NCBI GenBank assembly: GCA_951394045.1
Contig: OX595992.1
Span: 1,054,001-1,118,000, forward strand
DNA: 64,000 bases
Reading direction: 5' to 3'
Source: Nitzschia sp. DOCU1
Taxonomy: Eukaryota > Bacillariophyta > Bacillariophyceae > Bacillariales > Bacillariaceae
Position 1 is the first letter of the stretch. Each line of letters opens with the position of its first letter. A model generated the notes under the pieces. The model searched no databases and had not been told where the DNA came from. It saw only the letters and a list, made by a program, of their open reading frames with translations. A program made the position numbers and the translations under genes. Shown here in pieces: positions 32,345-43,408 of this stretch.

Positions 32345-35300
32345 ATGTCGCCGCCATTAGAGTCGGCCGCAGCCTCTCTGGATGCCGCTTCCAATCGTTT
32401 GCCAGCCCCACAAGATGTGTTGCAAAGACGTTTTGAGCTGGTAGCCCAGTTGGTGCGAGAGTCGAGTCCCGCATCCACCAACAATAGCAATGACGAAAAA
32501 TTACGCTACTATGGGCTGTACAAGCACATTACACAAGGTCCTTGTAATGACGATGACGCTCCATCTATCTTGAATGTGGTGGCCAGATCCAAATTTATGG
32601 CATGGAAAGATTGCCAGAAATTTTCTAGACAAGAAGCCATGCAAGAGTACATTAATCTGATGACGTCTCGCAATGATCATCTGGGAGAGAAATGTCGAGA
32701 AATCGTCCAGGAGGACTACAACTGTAAAGCTCCGACCACGAAATCGTCAGTGCGGCATTCGAAACAGGTACTTGCTGCCCAAACTACCACTAGTTTCAGT
32801 TTGTCGTTTGACTCCACCACGAAAGTCGCGTCTTTCTCTCTTTGGAAGTATTTTCATGTATGGATGGCATCCTTTGGCATCCAAGTACTGGAATTCCTGG
32901 GAGTCAAACCGTTGATACCTCGGGGTCGACTGGATCTATCCTACTGGGATCTTGTGTATGCGCTAGGACAATGTGGCAAGTGGTGGCAAGAGACCTTGTA
33001 CCACTGCCGGCAGATGAGTGATCAAATTCGTCGCGTTTGGGAGGAAAACGCAGGAGAAGATGGCGTGGTGGCTGGATTATCGGTGCGATCACTCTTGGAT
33101 CTTTATTTGTTAACCAAGAAATTTCCCAAGGGATCTCAAGTTATAATGGTTCCACCCATTAGCGTGCCGGGCATGGTCCTAGTGTTAAAATACCATGATT
33201 TGGAAATTGTCCCCATTGACATGCCGCCAGCAAACGACGACGACAATGGCTCGCTGGAATGGTATGATTTTCATCAAATCCAAGAGGCAATCACTCCGAA
33301 ATCTGTGGCCATAATGTTGGTTCATCCATTTGGTAGACTGGCAGCCTCCGTTACACAAATGCAAGAGTTACGAAGACTGGCAGACGAACATGGTCTGGAG
33401 TTATGGGAAGACTGTGCCGAGTGCTTCATGGGTCTTGGTAAAGAGTGCTACAAGGGATCACCTCTGGCAGATGTACGATTCTTTTCGTTTGGAATGATCA
33501 AAACAAGCACGGCACTGGGAGGAGGGATCGCCACGTTTCGGGACTTGGAATCTCGGCGCAATGTGGAACGTTTACAATGGTCATTGCCTCAATGCCAAAC
33601 AACGTTTCAGTTTCTCTGTCGGGTTCTTTTGGCAATGCTTCTCAATTACATTGCAGACTCGCCTTGGAGAGTCGGACTGTTGGTCCAGGTATGCGCATGG
33701 TTCGGTCTAGACTTTGATCGCGTCGTCACCAACGCTGTGCGAGGCTTTCGGATACAGCAGTACTGCGTGGCTACCGATAAAGAAATAAAGCTGCGTCGTC
33801 GTCAAGGCGAAACGGACCTTATACGTCAGATACGTAAACGCCCCTGCCATGCTCTGCTTGCCTTGATGTATCGACGTTTCTCTCAATCGAAAACTCAAAT
33901 AACCACGTCTGTCCGAGACCGGACCATACAATGCAATCAAATGCAAGCCGTGTTGGCCACGTCCATTCCAAAAGCTCTTTTACCATACGGTCCACATCAG
34001 CGGAATACATATTGGTCCTTTCCTATCATCTGCGATAATCGCGATGACGTTAGTGCCATCTTGGTCGAACAAGGATTCGATGTCGTCAGCGGGGCTTCTC
34101 AGCTTGGCTGTGTGACTAATTGGGCGGAAGCAAATCATGGTTCCTGCCCAGTGGCATCCAAACTCATGAATTCGATCCTGTACGTGCCCATCTCGAGTCA
34201 GCAGCTGCCGCCTAAGGAATTACAACGCCTAGCAGACGGTCTCAAGCACGCGGTTCAAACGGCTGAGTTGACGACCAGCTCCAAAGGCCGTCAAAAAGGG
34301 AAACACAAAGCTTCCATATCTGCGTTGACGCTCGCTGCGTTGATTCCTATCTGGTTCCTTCTGACTGTTCGATTCGGTACAGTCAACTCCTTACTTTGGA
34401 TGGGGTGGCTAGGCTTGAACGTCGCTGTTTCCATGTTCACTGCCTATATTCTTTGGATTGTATGCCTGTGCCTACTTCGCTTCAACATGGCAAGTCTGTA
34501 TTTGGAGGGATCTACAGCATTCGCAGAACATTGCGACATGATTGATGCAGGCACATCGGAACAACCGCATCCAAATCGGTATAAGGGATCCGGGAACGCT
34601 ATTCTTTCACAAATGCCATCCCTACAGATGACCCAGCCCACGGCAGAATCTGCAGAGCGCGCAATTATTCTTACTGGTGCGACTGGGTTTATAGGCTCCA
34701 TGCTACTACATGATTTGCTGTGGCGAAGAAAAGAACTTTCGCTTGATCGCCTTATTCTCATCTGTAGGGGGAGGAAGGGGGATTCAGCTACATCGAGAAT
34801 TTCGGCCTTGCTGCGCAAACCAATGTTCTCCTTTCTGACGGACGAGGACAAAGAGCGATGTGTAGAGGTACTCAATGGGGATGTGTCCCAACCATCGGCC
34901 GGGCTTTCGGACGATGATTTTTCTCGTGTTGTTAACGATCCCAAAATCTCTCATGTCTTCCACTGCGCGGCAGCGGTCGGCTTTACGCAAGAGCTGCCAG
35001 ATGCCGCAAGATCGAATATATCATCCTCCCTAGCAATGCAACAATTGACATCACGATTACCGCGCAAGGGAGCAAAGTTTGTCCACATTAGTACTGCTTT
35101 TGTCCACGGTAGTCTCTGTGGCTCCGTGGAGGCTCCGCTCTCGGAAGGACTTTTCCCGTTGGATCCGTTCAATCCGGAAGAGATATACCAGTCCATGCTT
35201 GGAACTCAGTTCTACGCCTCCAAGGCAATGGCAGATCTGGAGTTTGCGAATTCCTATACTCTGAGCAAGTGCGTCTGTGAGCATTTGCTCCTACGGCGGA

Positions 35301-38300
35301 AAGCAATCGATACTCTAATAATACGGCCAAGTATCGTGGGTCCAGCAGTAGAGGCGCCCTGGGAGGGCTGGGCTGGCGACAAACCCACAACAATCGTGGC
35401 AGCCGCTTGTCTTCATCTTTTGAATCAATGGAATATCTGGTACCTGGAGTCAAATTCTGTTTCCTACATCCCGGTCGACGTACTTTCTCGCTTCATCCTC
35501 GCAAAGTCTTTCGGCGAGTCAAACGATTTCGTTATAAATGCAGATACGGCCTCTTCGTCAAATGGAAGTTATGATAAGGTCAGTAGAGCGACCAGCGACA
35601 GTCAATCCGATTCGGACGAGACGCTTTCGGTGGACAGCAAACCTTCCAGCCCGCAGTCCGGTCATATCTTCAACGCAACCTGGGATACCTCTTCCGATTC
35701 GTCCACATTTTCTTGGCTTGAATTCAGTGTGACCTATCTTCAGCTTGGTTGCGTCCTTGGCTATTTCAGCCGTGGCTTGGCCTACTTGTCTCTGCTGGTT
35801 TCGGCGCATCTTTCGCCACGATATTGCGATAATAGTGGATTGTATCACAAAGTTCATGCTCTGTTGGTTCGGGGACCCATCGAGCTCCTCATTTGGTTCC
35901 TTGAAACGATATATGTCGCAACGGCTGGGATCAAGAAAGTTCTTCCTTTTCTCGATTTGCCACTGCTCTTCTTTCCGTTTGTCCAAAGAACTTTCCACTT
36001 TCGGTCAGGTTTAGTGGCTCCGAGCAACTTCGACTCAAGAAGATACGTGTTCAGCATGGCGGTTGCAGCTCATCGATTCATTTCTGACAAAACTTCGATG
36101 GACCCGAGTGCATCAAATGATGATTCGTCGAAGGAGTGGCTTTCTACGCACAAGATTGGGGGTCAAGGTCATGTCGTGAGAACTGCTGATTTTTTGTGGG
36201 CAGTTACTCAACCACGCGGTGGTTTTGCGGTGCGGTTCTCTGCCTTTGCGTTCTCGAAGATCCTTCAATGCGTATGTTCCATCGTCACCGTTGATCTACC
36301 ATCGTTTCGACGCGTCTTGAGTAGTATCCGCAGCAAAGTCAAAGATGACCAGACGTATTTGATAATGGCTCCGACCCACCGAAGTTTCTTTGATTTCATC
36401 CTCATCAGCTACGTATTGTTTGCTATACCAGAGCTGCAGTTAGACATTCCGTACATAATTGCGGCAGACGAATTCCAGTTCCTCCCCTTCTTGGGGTGGT
36501 TTTGTAGGAAGCTACGGGCATTGTATATACGAAGAGGGCGTGGTCAAGAAGATCCAACCTTGACGACAAAGTTGAGCGAATTCAAAGCAAACGAATTGTC
36601 AGCGAAGGAAACGGCACTCGAAGTTTTTCTGGAAGGTACCAGAAGTCGCGACCGACGATTCGTCGAGGCGAAAACTGGTCTTCTTAAGTGCCTGGATCAG
36701 ACAGGTGGAAATCATGTTATAGTTCCGATAACAATAAACTACGAACGGGTTCCCGAACAAGAGAACCTCTCCTACGAGGCTTCCGGCTCGAGACGAAAGG
36801 GATTGAATTTGCGAGGCTTGCTATCCTGGCTGATCGATGCCATTAGAGGACGAGTGAAGTTGGGAAAGATACACATGTTGGCTGGTGATCCATTGCCCAT
36901 GTTGTGTGAGACCGGTGAAGATTTTGCCGCATTTGCGAAGGAAGTTCAGATACGACAACAGGAAAAAGTTCTTGTATCTGACTATCACTTTCAAGCCGCA
37001 GCGGCGCTATTTGAATTACCCCAATCGACTGTGGTCGAGGCAATGATGAAACTAGGATGCCAAAAGTGGCCAACGGTGTCAGGGGGCGACCGTCTCCCTG
37101 AACTACCGGAAAATATGTCGGAACTGATGTCGATTATTCTGCAAGTTGGTCATCTCATTGCTCCAATGTTTACCAAAAGTCACCCGGGGTGGACCCAGTG
37201 GTTGAGCTGTCATGCGGCCGACCGCGAATTCGACGCTGTCGATGACAACACAAGGAAAATCCATCAAGCCCTCGGCAGCCTTTTCGACGCGGCAACGTCC
37301 GTCGTAACAGAGACAGCCAAACAGCTGCAGGCAGAAGGTTTTCTCCTTCCCACGACCAAGCACCTTTTGCAACTGGCTGAATCGGCTAGTGGAGGAGACG
37401 TGCCGGCTATTTTACTGCATGCGGCAGTTCAAATGCATCTAGCCAAGGGTCGAGAAGGAGATGGCGAAGACACCGATGCTGACATTCGCCTAGAATCTGC
37501 AATGTCCCATGAGAATGCAATGGTCAACGACGACCAGGAACGAGTCGGCTTTTGGGGATTCGTTGACTCTGGATTTGTTTTGCGGAATCAGTCACATAAT
37601 AATGGCCAAACGACAGTTGCAATGAAAGGTGACAAGTATGCACTAAGCGGCTGTTCCCTGTCCAGGCTTTTGCCCTTTATGGAATCCGAAATGAATATCG
37701 AAATTGATGTTTGGCGGGAATTCCCATCGCTGTCATCGACCTGGTTCGCTGCTGACATGAGAAATGACCTTGGTAAGGAAGATGCTGGCTTTCTCCAGAA
37801 TAACTTCTCCCGGACTTCCTTCAAAATGGTAGAAAGGCTTCGTCATGGAACCGGCCATTCACAAGAGGATGTCTTTGCGATCCGTGACGGCCCCATGTTT
37901 CGAATTCCCGATGCGGTGGTTTGGCCTACAACCGAGGATGAAGTTGTTGCATTGGTTCAAGCCAGCAAGGAACGAGGTTGGTGTTTGATACCCTTTGGTG
38001 GGGGTACAAACGTCAGCAGCGCCACAAGATGCCCGGACAAGGCGGTAGAACCCCGACCCATCATTTCCGTGGACATGAAAGAGATGCAACGAATTCTGTG
38101 GGTGAACGATGAGGATGGACTCGCGCACGTCGAAGCTGGAATTATAGGCCGTGATCTTGTTCACGAACTACGACGCTGCGGCTACACAATGGGTCACGAA
38201 CCAGATAGTATCGAATTCAGCACGTTGGGAGGCTGGATTGCCACAAAAGCCAGCGGTATGAAGAGAAGCCGCTATGGGAATATTGAAGACATTGTCAAGT

Positions 38301-39331
38301 CGGTAAGGGTCGTGACTTCCAAAGGCATCCTCTGGAAGGGCTCCAGCGAAGGCAATGCCGCTGTTCATGGCAGAGTCGCCGAGGGGTTTGATCTCCAATC
38401 CCTTGTTATTGGATCTGAAGGATGCCTTGGAATCATCACCAGTGCCGTCATTCGAATATGGCCCTTGCCAGAAGTACAGAGATTCGACAGTTTTATCTTT
38501 CCCAGCTTCGAGGCCGGATTGAGCTTTGTGCGTGGCATTGCCAAGAAGAACAGTTCTCACCTGCCGTCGAGCGTCAGACTTTTAGACAATGCCCATTTCC
38601 GACTCGGGCAAGCTCTCCGTCCAGACGACCCGTCAGCATTGGGCCAGATCAAGGAGACACTCATCAAGGCTGCTACCTCTGCCTTTTTTGCTGGCCGCCT
38701 CGATCCTCACTCCATTGTTTGTGCCACAATTTGCTACGAAGGCAGCAAGGGAGAAGTCGCCGCGCAAGAAGCCACTGTGAAAGAGAGTGTCAAACAGAAT
38801 GGCGGAGTACGACTCGGACCAAAGGTTGGAAAGTCAGGGTATGATCTGACCTTCATGATTGCTTATTTGCGAGATTTTGCCATGACGTATCATGTTCTAG
38901 GAGAATCGTTCGAAACCTTTTGTCCTTGGTCTAAAATTGAGACTTTGATCGAAGCCACGAAAAAGCGCATTCGCGACGAACACCGAGCTCGTTTGCTGCC
39001 TGGGACACCCTTTGTGGGTTGTCGAGTCACGCAACTTTATCACGAAGGCGCTTGCCTTTACTTTTATCTTTGCATCAGTTTTGATCGAGTCCAGTATCCC
39101 AGCGCCGTGTTTTCAGCATTGGAAGCCGCGGCACGCGATGAAATTTTGAAGCAGGGAGGATCCCTCAGTCACCACCATGGCATTGGAAAGCACCGGGCTG
39201 CTCAATGGAAGACTCGGGTTTCTCCAGCTTTGAATGCCTCCATCCGAAACATCAAAGAGGGCATCGACGAGGACAACATCTTCGGCGCACGGAACGGGCC
39301 ATTTGCACCTTCCGGGCCAACACCCAGTTAG
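32345..39331 (+). CDS. Four-domain ether-lipid biosynthesis fusion: DegT-like / fatty acyl reductase / DHAP acyltransferase / alkyl-DHAP synthase
   Basis: One intronless frame of 2328 residues. Residues ~190-600 resemble DegT/DnrJ/EryC1 PLP enzymes: EDCAECF, and FFSFGMIKTSTALGGG with the likely PLP Lys near 386. Two TM helices follow (~660-715). From ~773, ILTGATGFIGSMLLHDLLWR and SYTLSKC (Tyr ~970, Lys ~974) mark a fatty acyl reductase. From ~1320, APTHRSFFDF (HX4D, His ~1345) and EVFLEGTRSRDRRF mark a DHAPAT/GNPAT-type acyltransferase. From ~1770 the C-terminus is an alkyl-DHAP synthase: LIPFGGGTNVSSA (FAD loop, ~1881), GHEPDSIEFSTLGGWIATKA (~1947), VIGSEGCLGIIT and HHHGIGKHRAAQW (~2275). 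The expected chemistry: acyl-CoA to fatty alcohol, DHAP to acyl-DHAP, then exchange to alkyl-DHAP. The C-terminus lacks an SKL-type PTS1, and I see no convincing PTS2. The role of the PLP-like domain is unknown. Confidence 0.93.
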   Translation: MSPPLESAAASLDAASNRLPAPQDVLQRRFELVAQLVRESSPASTNNSNDEKLRYYGLYKHITQGPCNDDDAPSILNVVARSKFMAWKDCQKFSRQEAMQEYINLMTSRNDHLGEKCREIVQEDYNCKAPTTKSSVRHSKQVLAAQTTTSFSLSFDSTTKVASFSLWKYFHVWMASFGIQVLEFLGVKPLIPRGRLDLSYWDLVYALGQCGKWWQETLYHCRQMSDQIRRVWEENAGEDGVVAGLSVRSLLDLYLLTKKFPKGSQVIMVPPISVPGMVLVLKYHDLEIVPIDMPPANDDDNGSLEWYDFHQIQEAITPKSVAIMLVHPFGRLAASVTQMQELRRLADEHGLELWEDCAECFMGLGKECYKGSPLADVRFFSFGMIKTSTALGGGIATFRDLESRRNVERLQWSLPQCQTTFQFLCRVLLAMLLNYIADSPWRVGLLVQVCAWFGLDFDRVVTNAVRGFRIQQYCVATDKEIKLRRRQGETDLIRQIRKRPCHALLALMYRRFSQSKTQITTSVRDRTIQCNQMQAVLATSIPKALLPYGPHQRNTYWSFPIICDNRDDVSAILVEQGFDVVSGASQLGCVTNWAEANHGSCPVASKLMNSILYVPISSQQLPPKELQRLADGLKHAVQTAELTTSSKGRQKGKHKASISALTLAALIPIWFLLTVRFGTVNSLLWMGWLGLNVAVSMFTAYILWIVCLCLLRFNMASLYLEGSTAFAEHCDMIDAGTSEQPHPNRYKGSGNAILSQMPSLQMTQPTAESAERAIILTGATGFIGSMLLHDLLWRRKELSLDRLILICRGRKGDSATSRISALLRKPMFSFLTDEDKERCVEVLNGDVSQPSAGLSDDDFSRVVNDPKISHVFHCAAAVGFTQELPDAARSNISSSLAMQQLTSRLPRKGAKFVHISTAFVHGSLCGSVEAPLSEGLFPLDPFNPEEIYQSMLGTQFYASKAMADLEFANSYTLSKCVCEHLLLRRKAIDTLIIRPSIVGPAVEAPWEGWAGDKPTTIVAAACLHLLNQWNIWYLESNSVSYIPVDVLSRFILAKSFGESNDFVINADTASSSNGSYDKVSRATSDSQSDSDETLSVDSKPSSPQSGHIFNATWDTSSDSSTFSWLEFSVTYLQLGCVLGYFSRGLAYLSLLVSAHLSPRYCDNSGLYHKVHALLVRGPIELLIWFLETIYVATAGIKKVLPFLDLPLLFFPFVQRTFHFRSGLVAPSNFDSRRYVFSMAVAAHRFISDKTSMDPSASNDDSSKEWLSTHKIGGQGHVVRTADFLWAVTQPRGGFAVRFSAFAFSKILQCVCSIVTVDLPSFRRVLSSIRSKVKDDQTYLIMAPTHRSFFDFILISYVLFAIPELQLDIPYIIAADEFQFLPFLGWFCRKLRALYIRRGRGQEDPTLTTKLSEFKANELSAKETALEVFLEGTRSRDRRFVEAKTGLLKCLDQTGGNHVIVPITINYERVPEQENLSYEASGSRRKGLNLRGLLSWLIDAIRGRVKLGKIHMLAGDPLPMLCETGEDFAAFAKEVQIRQQEKVLVSDYHFQAAAALFELPQSTVVEAMMKLGCQKWPTVSGGDRLPELPENMSELMSIILQVGHLIAPMFTKSHPGWTQWLSCHAADREFDAVDDNTRKIHQALGSLFDAATSVVTETAKQLQAEGFLLPTTKHLLQLAESASGGDVPAILLHAAVQMHLAKGREGDGEDTDADIRLESAMSHENAMVNDDQERVGFWGFVDSGFVLRNQSHNNGQTTVAMKGDKYALSGCSLSRLLPFMESEMNIEIDVWREFPSLSSTWFAADMRNDLGKEDAGFLQNNFSRTSFKMVERLRHGTGHSQEDVFAIRDGPMFRIPDAVVWPTTEDEVVALVQASKERGWCLIPFGGGTNVSSATRCPDKAVEPRPIISVDMKEMQRILWVNDEDGLAHVEAGIIGRDLVHELRRCGYTMGHEPDSIEFSTLGGWIATKASGMKRSRYGNIEDIVKSVRVVTSKGILWKGSSEGNAAVHGRVAEGFDLQSLVIGSEGCLGIITSAVIRIWPLPEVQRFDSFIFPSFEAGLSFVRGIAKKNSSHLPSSVRLLDNAHFRLGQALRPDDPSALGQIKETLIKAATSAFFAGRLDPHSIVCATICYEGSKGEVAAQEATVKESVKQNGGVRLGPKVGKSGYDLTFMIAYLRDFAMTYHVLGESFETFCPWSKIETLIEATKKRIRDEHRARLLPGTPFVGCRVTQLYHEGACLYFYLCISFDRVQYPSAVFSALEAAARDEILKQGGSLSHHHGIGKHRAAQWKTRVSPALNASIRNIKEGIDEDNIFGARNGPFAPSGPTPS

Positions 39332-41235: not shown

Positions 41236-42990
41236 TTACTTTGCGGGTTCTACGTTTCCATCTGCCGGTAGAAACTTTTGATAGGTTCTCATGGTCAAAG
41301 ATCCCAACGGAGAATCTTTTTCCATTCCGTACCTACAGGCTTCGTAGGCGATCAAGGCACTTTCCAAGCAGGTAAGTGTATTCGCAATGAGTTTGGGGCA
41401 ACTTCTCGTTCTCGCAAAAGTCTCGGCCATTCCCAAGAGCTGGCGCCCTATGCCTTGACCACGGAAATCCTGGTGTACAGCCAGCCGAAAGACCTCTAGG
41501 GTATTGGGGTCATCCTTGCGTTCACAACGTCGTAGACCGACACACCCAACGACTTCTCTTTGGGTGTTTGTGCTGCTATTGGGATAGCGCACCGCCACAA
41601 AGAAACATCCTTGCTGACTTTTGTACCGGGCCGTGATTTCGGACTCAGTCGGATCAATCTTTCCTTCCGACGACGATATAGCGAATTCGTTGTTCATGAT
41701 CCGGTTTACCATTTTCCGAATGGCAGGATAGGTATCAAACAAGTGTGCATAGGTACCACGAAAGATATCTGTCACTGCTTTCTCATCTTTTTCCTCCATT
41801 ACGGTGTAGGCAATGTTATTTTTCAACACTGGTGGAATTTCGGACGCCGCAAAGCAAGAGGGACACATGAGCCTCAATAATACCCCATCAGAACCGTCCG
41901 AAAAGGCCGTGCAGACAATGTAGGATTGAAGATGTAACACCAGGCCCGCGTGTTCATCAAAGACCTCTGGTATTCGAAATTCCGACCCTTTCGTCGCATG
42001 GGCGGCAGCCGTTCCAAGGGAAACCGCGTTTACTCTTGCAAACCCAGCTCGCTGAAAGCGCTCTTCCACAGATGTCACAGTTGCACCGATTGAGTAAAAT
42101 GAATTTTCTTCATTGGACTCTTCTTCAGGAATGTCCTTCTTGGAGGTACTTGATTTTCCTCGTTCCATCTTGTTCAAGAAAAGCCGGCAATAGTCTCTCC
42201 TGTACCCCTGAAGCACCGAAATGATACTACACCTATCAGATTCCATTTCATCGTAACCAAGGGGTTCCAGTGTCATTATGGCGTTGTCAGCGCGGGTTCC
42301 AAGTAATATGGCGCACCATTTCAACAGCTGATCCGTTTTGTCTGGCGGCAAGTAGGCCATCACCAACTCGGAAACGATCAAAGTCGGTGCCACAGATGGG
42401 TCTGAAATGACTCCACGCTCAATTAGCTGATCCAAGGCGGAAATGTTTCTCAAATCAACAGGAGCCAGATAGTAATCCGGAGTGGATGCCTGCTGAGTTG
42501 ACCTTGCTATCCGACCGATCAACGTCTCCTCTGCGTTGTTGACGTCAAAACCCTCCATTTCAACCACCAGGCCTTTGGCAACCAAGAAATCTTTCTTGGT
42601 CTTGCAAACACTTGGCATGTCCAACTCAACAATTCGAATTTGACCATTTGTTTTGGGCAGTGAATGTGCCCACAATCCAATAATGTCGACACCACATCCT
42701 AAAAAGACAATCTGTAGCGTTTCCTGTGGATGGGCATGCTGATGAAATTGAACAAAGCCGTCGATTGCCTGAGAGACTGCCAAGACTCGTACGGAATATC
42801 CAGCGTTGACCAAGGGCGTTTGTCGGCGTAGCTTCCAATCACTGGTCGCTCGCTGGAGAAGATCTCGATAATGCTCTTCATTCCGCACTACCAAAGGTGA
42901 GTAACCCAGCGAGAGAGCCGACTGCTTCGCCTGCAAGGAATCAAAGGCTGTCTTGGCAACAGGAGACGACTGGTTCAGTGATAAAGACAT
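41236..42990 (-). CDS. Leucine carboxyl methyltransferase-GNAT acetyltransferase fusion
   Basis: 584 residues from the ATG at 42990, no intron. Residues ~1-350 are an LCM/PPM1 S-adenosylmethionine methyltransferase: RRQTPLVNAGYSVRV, the SAM loop VFLGCGVDIIGLW, acidic IVELDMP, SELVMAYLP and a late ERFQRAGFARVNAVSL. Members methylate the C-terminal Leu of PP2A (LCMT1) or act in wybutosine synthesis (LCMT2); this one is not clearly either. Residues ~400-575 are a GNAT N-acetyltransferase with VVGCVGLRRCE and the acetyl-CoA loop FRLAVHQDFRGQGIGRQLLG. Two catalytic domains in one chain are unusual for LCM enzymes. It ends 58 bp from the convergent APS reductase. Confidence 0.85.
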   Translation of the reverse strand: MSLSLNQSSPVAKTAFDSLQAKQSALSLGYSPLVVRNEEHYRDLLQRATSDWKLRRQTPLVNAGYSVRVLAVSQAIDGFVQFHQHAHPQETLQIVFLGCGVDIIGLWAHSLPKTNGQIRIVELDMPSVCKTKKDFLVAKGLVVEMEGFDVNNAEETLIGRIARSTQQASTPDYYLAPVDLRNISALDQLIERGVISDPSVAPTLIVSELVMAYLPPDKTDQLLKWCAILLGTRADNAIMTLEPLGYDEMESDRCSIISVLQGYRRDYCRLFLNKMERGKSSTSKKDIPEEESNEENSFYSIGATVTSVEERFQRAGFARVNAVSLGTAAAHATKGSEFRIPEVFDEHAGLVLHLQSYIVCTAFSDGSDGVLLRLMCPSCFAASEIPPVLKNNIAYTVMEEKDEKAVTDIFRGTYAHLFDTYPAIRKMVNRIMNNEFAISSSEGKIDPTESEITARYKSQQGCFFVAVRYPNSSTNTQREVVGCVGLRRCERKDDPNTLEVFRLAVHQDFRGQGIGRQLLGMAETFARTRSCPKLIANTLTCLESALIAYEACRYGMEKDSPLGSLTMRTYQKFLPADGNVEPAK

Positions 42991-43408
42991 CCAAGGCCCC
43001 ACACACCTGCGATTACGTCATGGGCAACGCTTGCAAGAACGCAAGGGTCGTAAATGTTTGTGGTCGGGGAGTGTGAGAAACATTGTGAGAATGATGAGTG
43101 AGGTATCAAGAGCGAAATGAGAGGACGATGAGAGATGAGAGAAAGGATCGCATCGACACCCGGATGTATGCGACACTTAGAGTATCTTTGACTAGACGGA
43201 CTAAAATGACTACCGATAGCGAGCGGAAGATTTTAGCCAAAAAGTAGCCAACGAACGCTGCTTCTCACCGTCGGAATCATTGGATTCTTTGGTAGCCTGA
43301 CTGGGGAAGTGGCACTATTACATAGCTAGTCCATAAAATACACCAATTTAACATCGACGGTTATGCACGAAATTGTAGTACGTGTAGTGTACTAATTGAT
43401 TTCAAATT
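42991..43408. other. Intergenic stretch
   Basis: 418 bp between the LCM-GNAT start and the BUD32 stop (both minus). It contains a purine-rich GAGAATGATGAGTGAGG-type run on the plus strand near 43085-43150, and no ORF of note. Confidence 0.5.

Follow-up and report, generated by a model that had tools for sequence, protein, structure and literature searches.

A single diatom reading frame joining ether-lipid synthesis domains to a DegT-type aminotransferase: a candidate source of aminated ether lipids

One reading frame of a diatom genome encodes an acyl-CoA-binding domain (ACBP), a DegT-type PLP aminotransferase, a fatty acyl reductase (FAR), a DHAP/G3P-type acyltransferase (AT), and an alkyl-DHAP synthase (AGPS), in that order. 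In animals, making the fatty alcohol, acylating DHAP, and forming the ether take three separate enzymes. We favor the reading, at a probability of about 0.45 and thus somewhat short of even odds, that the diatom protein is an ether-lipid synthase contained in one chain and equipped with its own aminotransferase, in which DegT would aminate the C2 ketone of alkyl-DHAP. The original prediction for this frame had named FAR, GNPAT, and AGPS; all three are there, but the list was incomplete, missing the ACBP domain (residues 27-105) and the DegT_DnrJ_EryC1 match (residues 251-410). With an ACBP domain and a complete-looking aminotransferase ahead of FAR-AT-AGPS, the product may be something other than a classical ether lipid, and the aminotransferase hints at one that contains nitrogen.

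The reading frame and its domains

The frame lies in a 64-kb window (the whole stretch of DNA analyzed, C8:1054001-1118000) of a genome of 52 Mb in 63 contigs. As predicted, it is a single uninterrupted frame of 2,328 codons on the plus strand, running from an ATG at 32345 to a stop that ends at 39331. Its 6,984 coding bases require neither a stop nor an intron, and at window composition the chance of an open run of this length is ~10^-49. The features, in window coordinates, are:

32345..39331, + strand: complete coding frame (2,328 codons and a stop) for ACBP, DegT aminotransferase, a pair of hydrophobic helices, FAR, acyltransferase, and AGPS (open frame and Pfam)
32423..32659, + strand: ACBP domain, residues 27-105 (Pfam PF00887, E 6.3e-20)
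32900..34294, + strand: DegT-type PLP aminotransferase domain, spanning about residues 186-650 with the Pfam core at 251-410 (PF01041, E 6.5e-17)
33500..33502, + strand: codon for Lys386 of the SFGMIK motif, predicted to form the Schiff base with PLP (subfamily alignment)
34313..34477, + strand: a pair of hydrophobic stretches at residues 657-675 and 693-711 (Kyte-Doolittle maxima of 2.07 and 2.44)
34670..35497, + strand: fatty acyl reductase domain (NAD_binding_4), residues 776-1051, with TGATGFIG and Y971xxxK975 (PF07993, E 8.7e-40)
36353..36736, + strand: DHAP/G3P-type acyltransferase domain, residues 1337-1464, with HRSFFD and EGTRSR (PF01553, E 1.8e-19)
37547..39295, + strand: alkyl-DHAP synthase (AGPS) domain, residues 1735-2317, with R2078, Y2239, and HHH 2276-2278 (guinea-pig AGPS 4bby, E 1.2e-133)

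Searched with the protein, the whole genome yields a single full-length copy; 5 further matches are short FAD-oxidase or ACBP pieces. The surrounding genes are eukaryotic (EMC1, tubulin, an ATG11/ATG17-like gene, and a PAPS reductase-thioredoxin), and the genome contains 18 silicon-transporter matches above the family cut-off compared with 0 in 14 control genomes, 1 of which matched below the cut-off; this contrast supports a diatom origin. Two other frames also hold more than one domain match: G000:C2:4805391-4809131, a single open frame of 1,274 residues, holds two silicon-transporter matches, and window positions 41239-43002 (minus strand) encode leucine-carboxyl-methyltransferase-like and GNAT acetyltransferase domains within one frame.

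Pfam divides the translation into five functional parts (ACBP, DegT, FAR, AT, and AGPS). Together, Pfam and the alignments bear out the predicted order of FAR, acyltransferase, and AGPS, and every motif that had been listed is found: TGATGFIG at residue 777, YTLSK at 971, HRSFFD at 1345, EGTRSR at 1430, HHHG at 2276, PFGGGT in the AGPS part, and EPDSIEFSTLGGW in the translation. The domains proposed for these parts were likewise recovered by Pfam, as NAD_binding_4 (776-1051), Acyltransferase (1337-1464), FAD_binding_4 (1855-1997), and FAD-oxidase_C (2042-2314).

Solved ACBP structures match residues of the ACBP domain, which is presumed to bind acyl-CoA. The FAR domain carries both TGxxGFxG and YxxxK within NAD_binding_4 and ranks first among the genome's 12 NAD_binding_4 matches (2.4e-40; the next is 1.0e-14). 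The Sterile domain (PF03015) is unmatched in the diatom protein, and it is likewise absent from two bacterial FAR-AT proteins put to Pfam. Immediately after the FAR domain there is a Ser/Asp-rich insert (about residues 1067-1106, window 35543-35662), possibly a regulatory loop. In the acyltransferase, HX4D and EGTRSR fall inside the PF01553 domain, which matches PlsB and GPAT1 among compared sequences that held no GNPAT reference. Compared with an all-bacterial set of 14 FAR-AT proteins, whose genes stand next to AGPS, the FAR-AT part is collinear from end to end; the set has 144 columns conserved to 90% or more, and at 94 of these the diatom residue is identical.

The AGPS part contains FAD_binding_4 and FAD-oxidase_C and shows full-length homology to solved AGPS; the Dictyostelium enzyme (2uuu) matches residues 1735-2317 at 1.6e-70. 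In the residue alignment the catalytic Tyr, Arg, and His triplet are kept, and SHHHGIG is present. The diatom protein has Y and R where the rows 4bca and 4bc7 carry F and H; we take these two entries to be solved guinea-pig AGPS mutants, and the positions to be Y578 and R419. The guinea-pig (4bby) and Dictyostelium (2uuu) alkyl-DHAP synthases are thus homologous to the diatom domain across the whole catalytic part with key residues kept, but they are stand-alone peroxisomal enzymes, whereas the diatom AGPS is the C-terminal part of a fusion that lacks a PTS1. Of 8 FAD_binding_4 matches in the genome, only that of the fusion resembles AGPS over its length. The fusion gene is the genome's only clear AGPS, and it is also its only strong FAR match. 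On family knowledge, the last three domains should suffice to make alkyl-DHAP from acyl-CoA and DHAP.

Simple hydropathy suggests that the hydrophobic pair between DegT and FAR is likely a membrane hairpin. The protein ends in TPS, with no PTS1, in contrast to FARAT, which ends in SKL. Pex7, the PTS2 receptor, is missing from the diatoms examined, according to the accessible text of PMC3178647. With neither a PTS1 in the protein nor a PTS2 receptor in those diatoms, a location in the peroxisomal matrix is not obvious.

The DegT domain and its bacterial subfamily

The PF01041 match includes the PLP Lys and Asp of the DegT family and spans only model positions 52-198 of 360. It covers only the N-terminal half of the domain, in the diatom protein as well as in two bacterial members, L015 and L072; the C-terminal half of the diatom domain, unmatched by this model, is common to the bacterial subfamily. 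The alignment of 37 bacterial subfamily rows has 47 positions conserved to 85% or more; 41 of them, K386 and D356 included, are kept in the diatom protein. All 36 bacterial rows that have a letter at the Lys386 position have K there, and we take this position to be the PLP lysine of DegT enzymes. A structure of the domain predicted from 3 sequences was poor (mean pLDDT 48.5).

The subfamily does not group with the ordinary sugar aminotransferases, its clade being set apart from them. In a DegT tree of 44 rows, the 38 subfamily rows split from 6 generic DegT rows at 100/100. The diatom domain, on a long branch, pairs with that of L015 at 88/87, which is below the program's starred support level. 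Thus, the DegT/DnrJ/EryC1/StrS sugar aminotransferases share the N-terminal half and the PLP motifs with the diatom domain, whereas the subfamily has a C-terminal half unmatched by PF01041, forms its own 100/100 clade, and, at the loci scanned, lies among lipid genes in place of sugar genes.

The bacterial set comprises 37 loci. Subfamily members occur in 6 of 298 genomes of Gemmatimonadota (including that of L015), in 14 of 343 of Planctomycetota, in 1 of 369 from the class of the L072 genome (its own), and, with clear scores, in 16 of 377 of Myxococcota. At E 1e-40 the Myxococcota count becomes 37 of 377, the remaining 21 scoring at the level of generic DegT. Acidobacteriota gave 0 of 347 genomes at E 1e-50, an empty answer that had no positive control. 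One Planctomycetota member, L155:3623-7939, is a frame of 1,439 residues in which the subfamily domain is C-terminal and the ~1,000 preceding residues have no Pfam match. A DNA-pattern search of genome contigs for close DegT relatives matched 18 stretches, none of which encodes a relative. Among viral contigs, the AGPS query found no relative, and the DegT alignment found 1 weak locus (L089) among 151 stretches. Of 679 plasmid records that matched the L015 DegT protein, only 1 reached a coverage of 80% or more in one place. The 20 matches listed look like generic sugar aminotransferases and were rejected as subfamily members.

Gene neighborhoods of DegT and AGPS in bacteria

DegT neighborhoods were scanned over ~6-10 kb per side, with several stretches stopping at contig ends. 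AGPS neighbors DegT at 3 of the 37 bacterial loci (L015, L072, and L102) and is not found at the other 34. At L015 (Gemmatimonadetes) the order is AGPS, FAR-AT, DegT, and a PlsC-family gene, with successive overlaps of 64, 4, and 4 bases; at L072 (Gammaproteobacteria) DegT precedes a PlsC-AGPS fusion with a 26-base overlap. At L102 the two genes adjoin in convergent orientation. There, the other side of AGPS is flanked by a FAR-AMP-binding protein (L102:5284-7614; Pfam finds FAR, Sterile, and a partial AMP-binding domain, and no acyltransferase), and beyond DegT lie genes for GNAT and ketoacyl synthase proteins.

These pairings are not one inherited block. In an AGPS tree of 77 rows, a 100/100 branch separates the L015 AGPS from that of L072. 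By sequence match the L102 AGPS is nearest that of Dictyostelium (5e-125), and the AGPS-linked label needs 3 changes on the DegT tree. A single origin of the AGPS-DegT pairing was rejected on the basis of the split and these changes. The diatom AGPS is a long branch in the L015 half of the AGPS tree, with no resolved partner.

Acyltransferases are the more frequent neighbors. Outside Planctomycetota, an acyltransferase gene directly adjoins DegT at 17 of 23 loci. In Gemmatimonadota this is so at 5 of 6 (PlsC at L015, L103, and L104; GNAT, with weak Pfam matches, at L102 and L105), L106 having no acyltransferase directly beside DegT. L072 adds one more, and the Myxococcota account for 11 of 16; one of the 11 was put to Pfam (PF01553, 29.3 bits), and at 3 of the 5 loci that have no such neighbor DegT lies at a contig end. 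Of the Planctomycetota neighbors, part of which were put to Pfam, an acyltransferase-type gene (acyl-CoA:6-APA-acyltransferase-like) is found at 2 of 14 loci, L159 and L160. FAD_binding_4/ALO-type oxidase pieces stand beside DegT at L159 (7728-9311), L160, and L162; this cluster of 3 loci was rejected as AGPS, BLAST giving only 25% identity over a part at 37 bits. A neutral/alkaline ceramidase-like gene (L163:7572-9116, E 6.7e-13) adjoins a subfamily DegT in the same phylum. The other Planctomycetota loci have no consistent context among the neighbors examined.

Scanning prokaryote genomes with the AGPS part turned up 213 relatives; the 81 AGPS loci considered here are the best 80 of these plus L102. 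Among the 81, 27 loci that lack DegT carry a FAR or FAR-AT match no more than 6 kb from AGPS, and 13 of these 27 have an extended SDR within 6 kb, in 12 cases directly downstream on the same strand. Only L015 has both FAR-AT and DegT, and its DegT occupies the slot after FAR-AT that the extended SDR fills in the 12 others. Counting both kinds, an SDR lies within 6 kb of AGPS at 42 of the 78 loci that have no DegT versus 0 of 3 that have one, a difference that is not significant (Fisher p 0.107).

HMG-CoA-reductase-like genes, 18 of them in one cluster with Pfam confirming one member, occur in 18 of the AGPS loci, among them L058, L061, L063, L066, L070, L071, L075, L076, L078, L080, L087, and L072 (6636-7922). 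In Marinimicrobia the gene often stands two genes before AGPS, with a short gene, probably PlsC, between. The AGPSs near these genes may use an isoprenoid alcohol.

A proposed pathway, its alternatives, and its relation to known systems

In the favored reading, the ACBP domain would hold a long-chain acyl-CoA. From what is known of their families, FAR would convert one acyl-CoA to fatty alcohol, the acyltransferase would place another acyl group on DHAP, and AGPS, using FAD, would swap that acyl group for the fatty alcohol to give alkyl-DHAP. Alkyl-DHAP has a ketone at C2 that is reduced in the usual pathway (accessible text of PMC13256971). Where the standard pathway uses a reductase, DegT, with PLP and probably glutamate as donor, would instead transaminate this ketone, yielding 1-O-alkyl-2-amino-2-deoxyglycerol-3-phosphate; another enzyme could then N-acylate the 2-amino base to give a ceramide-like ether lipid. 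The amination step, with its substrate and product, is inferred from gene context and chemistry. What suggests it is the presence of a PLP aminotransferase in the chain, together with the linkage of its subfamily to dissimilar AGPSs at three loci and to acyltransferases at most loci outside Planctomycetota. A precedent in chemistry is the N-terminal domain of RtxA (Bradyrhizobium), described in the accessible text of PMC3222319 as a DHAP aminotransferase that yields serinol phosphate; unlike the diatom protein, RtxA is without ether-lipid domains.

A wider proposal, which we hold more tentatively, is that the diatom protein is a one-chain synthase for an undescribed lipid class, the 1-O-alkyl-2-amino-2-deoxyglycerol phosphates, and that the DegT subfamily of Myxococcota, Gemmatimonadota, and Planctomycetota is a wider family of glycerone-lipid aminotransferases, which together with partner acyltransferases would produce lipids resembling ceramides.

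The protein might instead be an ordinary ether-lipid synthase, with alkyl-DHAP reduced by a separate short-chain reductase and with DegT being structural, regulatory, or without a lipid role. The intact FAR, AT, and AGPS domains fit this, as do the SDR-kind reductases that accompany AGPS at those 42 of 78 loci. On the other hand, retention by DegT of the PLP lysine, the aspartate, and most of the subfamily-conserved positions argues against a dead domain, and linkage to AGPS at three bacterial loci also speaks against this explanation, which we regard as unlikely though a serious contender. A different role for DegT is raised by the 34 bacterial loci where no AGPS is nearby, which leave alkyl-DHAP a less than obvious substrate for the whole subfamily and make DHAP or acyl-DHAP alternative substrates. 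DegT would then yield serinol phosphate or its acylated form, leading to an amide lipid parallel to alkyl-DHAP. The acyltransferases that so often adjoin DegT outside Planctomycetota and the reaction of RtxA with DHAP (PMC3222319, accessible text) are in keeping with such a role; however, DegT stands together with the complete AGPS set both in the fusion and in the L015 operon. Moreover, AGPS requires a ketone substrate, and thus amination ahead of AGPS would starve it. We consider this improbable.

Much less probable still is that FAR stops at the fatty aldehyde and that DegT transaminates this to a fatty amine. FAR and DegT do share a chain, the Sterile model (FAR C-terminal) is unmatched, and aldehyde formation was proposed for ElbD (accessible text of PMC9131029), but AGPS would be left without its alcohol, and Myxococcota and L103-L106 have DegT with no FAR match nearby. 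Least credible of all is a gene-model or assembly artefact in which adjacent genes mimic one frame: besides the absence of any need for a stop or intron, there are hydrophobic helices in the linkers, and across the FAR-AT junction the chain is collinear with the bacterial proteins.

The five-domain protein has partial relatives. FARAT (fatA) of Dictyostelium, to which the original prediction had rightly compared the frame, and ART1 of Tetrahymena also carry FAR and, after it, a DHAP-type acyltransferase on a single chain, but neither AGPS, ACBP, nor DegT is described there in the accessible text (PMC7375469, PMC3143110). The accessible text of PMC3143110 places FAR-DHAPAT fusions in Dictyostelium, ciliates, Naegleria, Phytophthora infestans, and others, and none in Thalassiosira pseudonana and Phaeodactylum tricornutum. 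In the MXAN_1676-1674 operon of Myxococcus xanthus, AGPS and FAR-GNPAT are neighboring genes (PMC9131029, accessible text); they are separate, with no aminotransferase, whereas in the diatom AGPS and FAR-AT are fused and DegT is present. The comparison with the myxobacterial ElbD had been loose: this multidomain ether-lipid protein does have FAR-like and acyltransferase domains, but it carries acyl-CoA synthetase and ACP domains and no AGPS (PMC9131029, accessible text), and Pfam finds neither an AMP-binding (acyl-CoA synthetase) nor an ACP domain in the diatom protein. FARAT, ART1, MXAN_1675, and ElbD each hold only part of the domain set. In the literature searched, outside which most subscription papers lay, no paper ties a DegT aminotransferase to ether-lipid synthesis, and neither the five-domain protein nor such a fusion in diatoms is described.

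If the frame is expressed as one protein, the diatom makes the fatty alcohol, acylates DHAP, and forms the ether on a single chain that has its own acyl-CoA-binding part, and the aminotransferase leads to the prediction, concrete and open to testing, that an aminated ether lipid is made. The 1-O-alkyl-2-amino-2-deoxyglycerol phosphates, if the proposal is true, would be analogues of sphingoid bases made from DHAP and fatty alcohol rather than from serine and palmitoyl-CoA. The DegT subfamily, where it lies beside acyltransferases or AGPS, would then serve as a genomic marker for seeking aminated ether lipids in bacteria.
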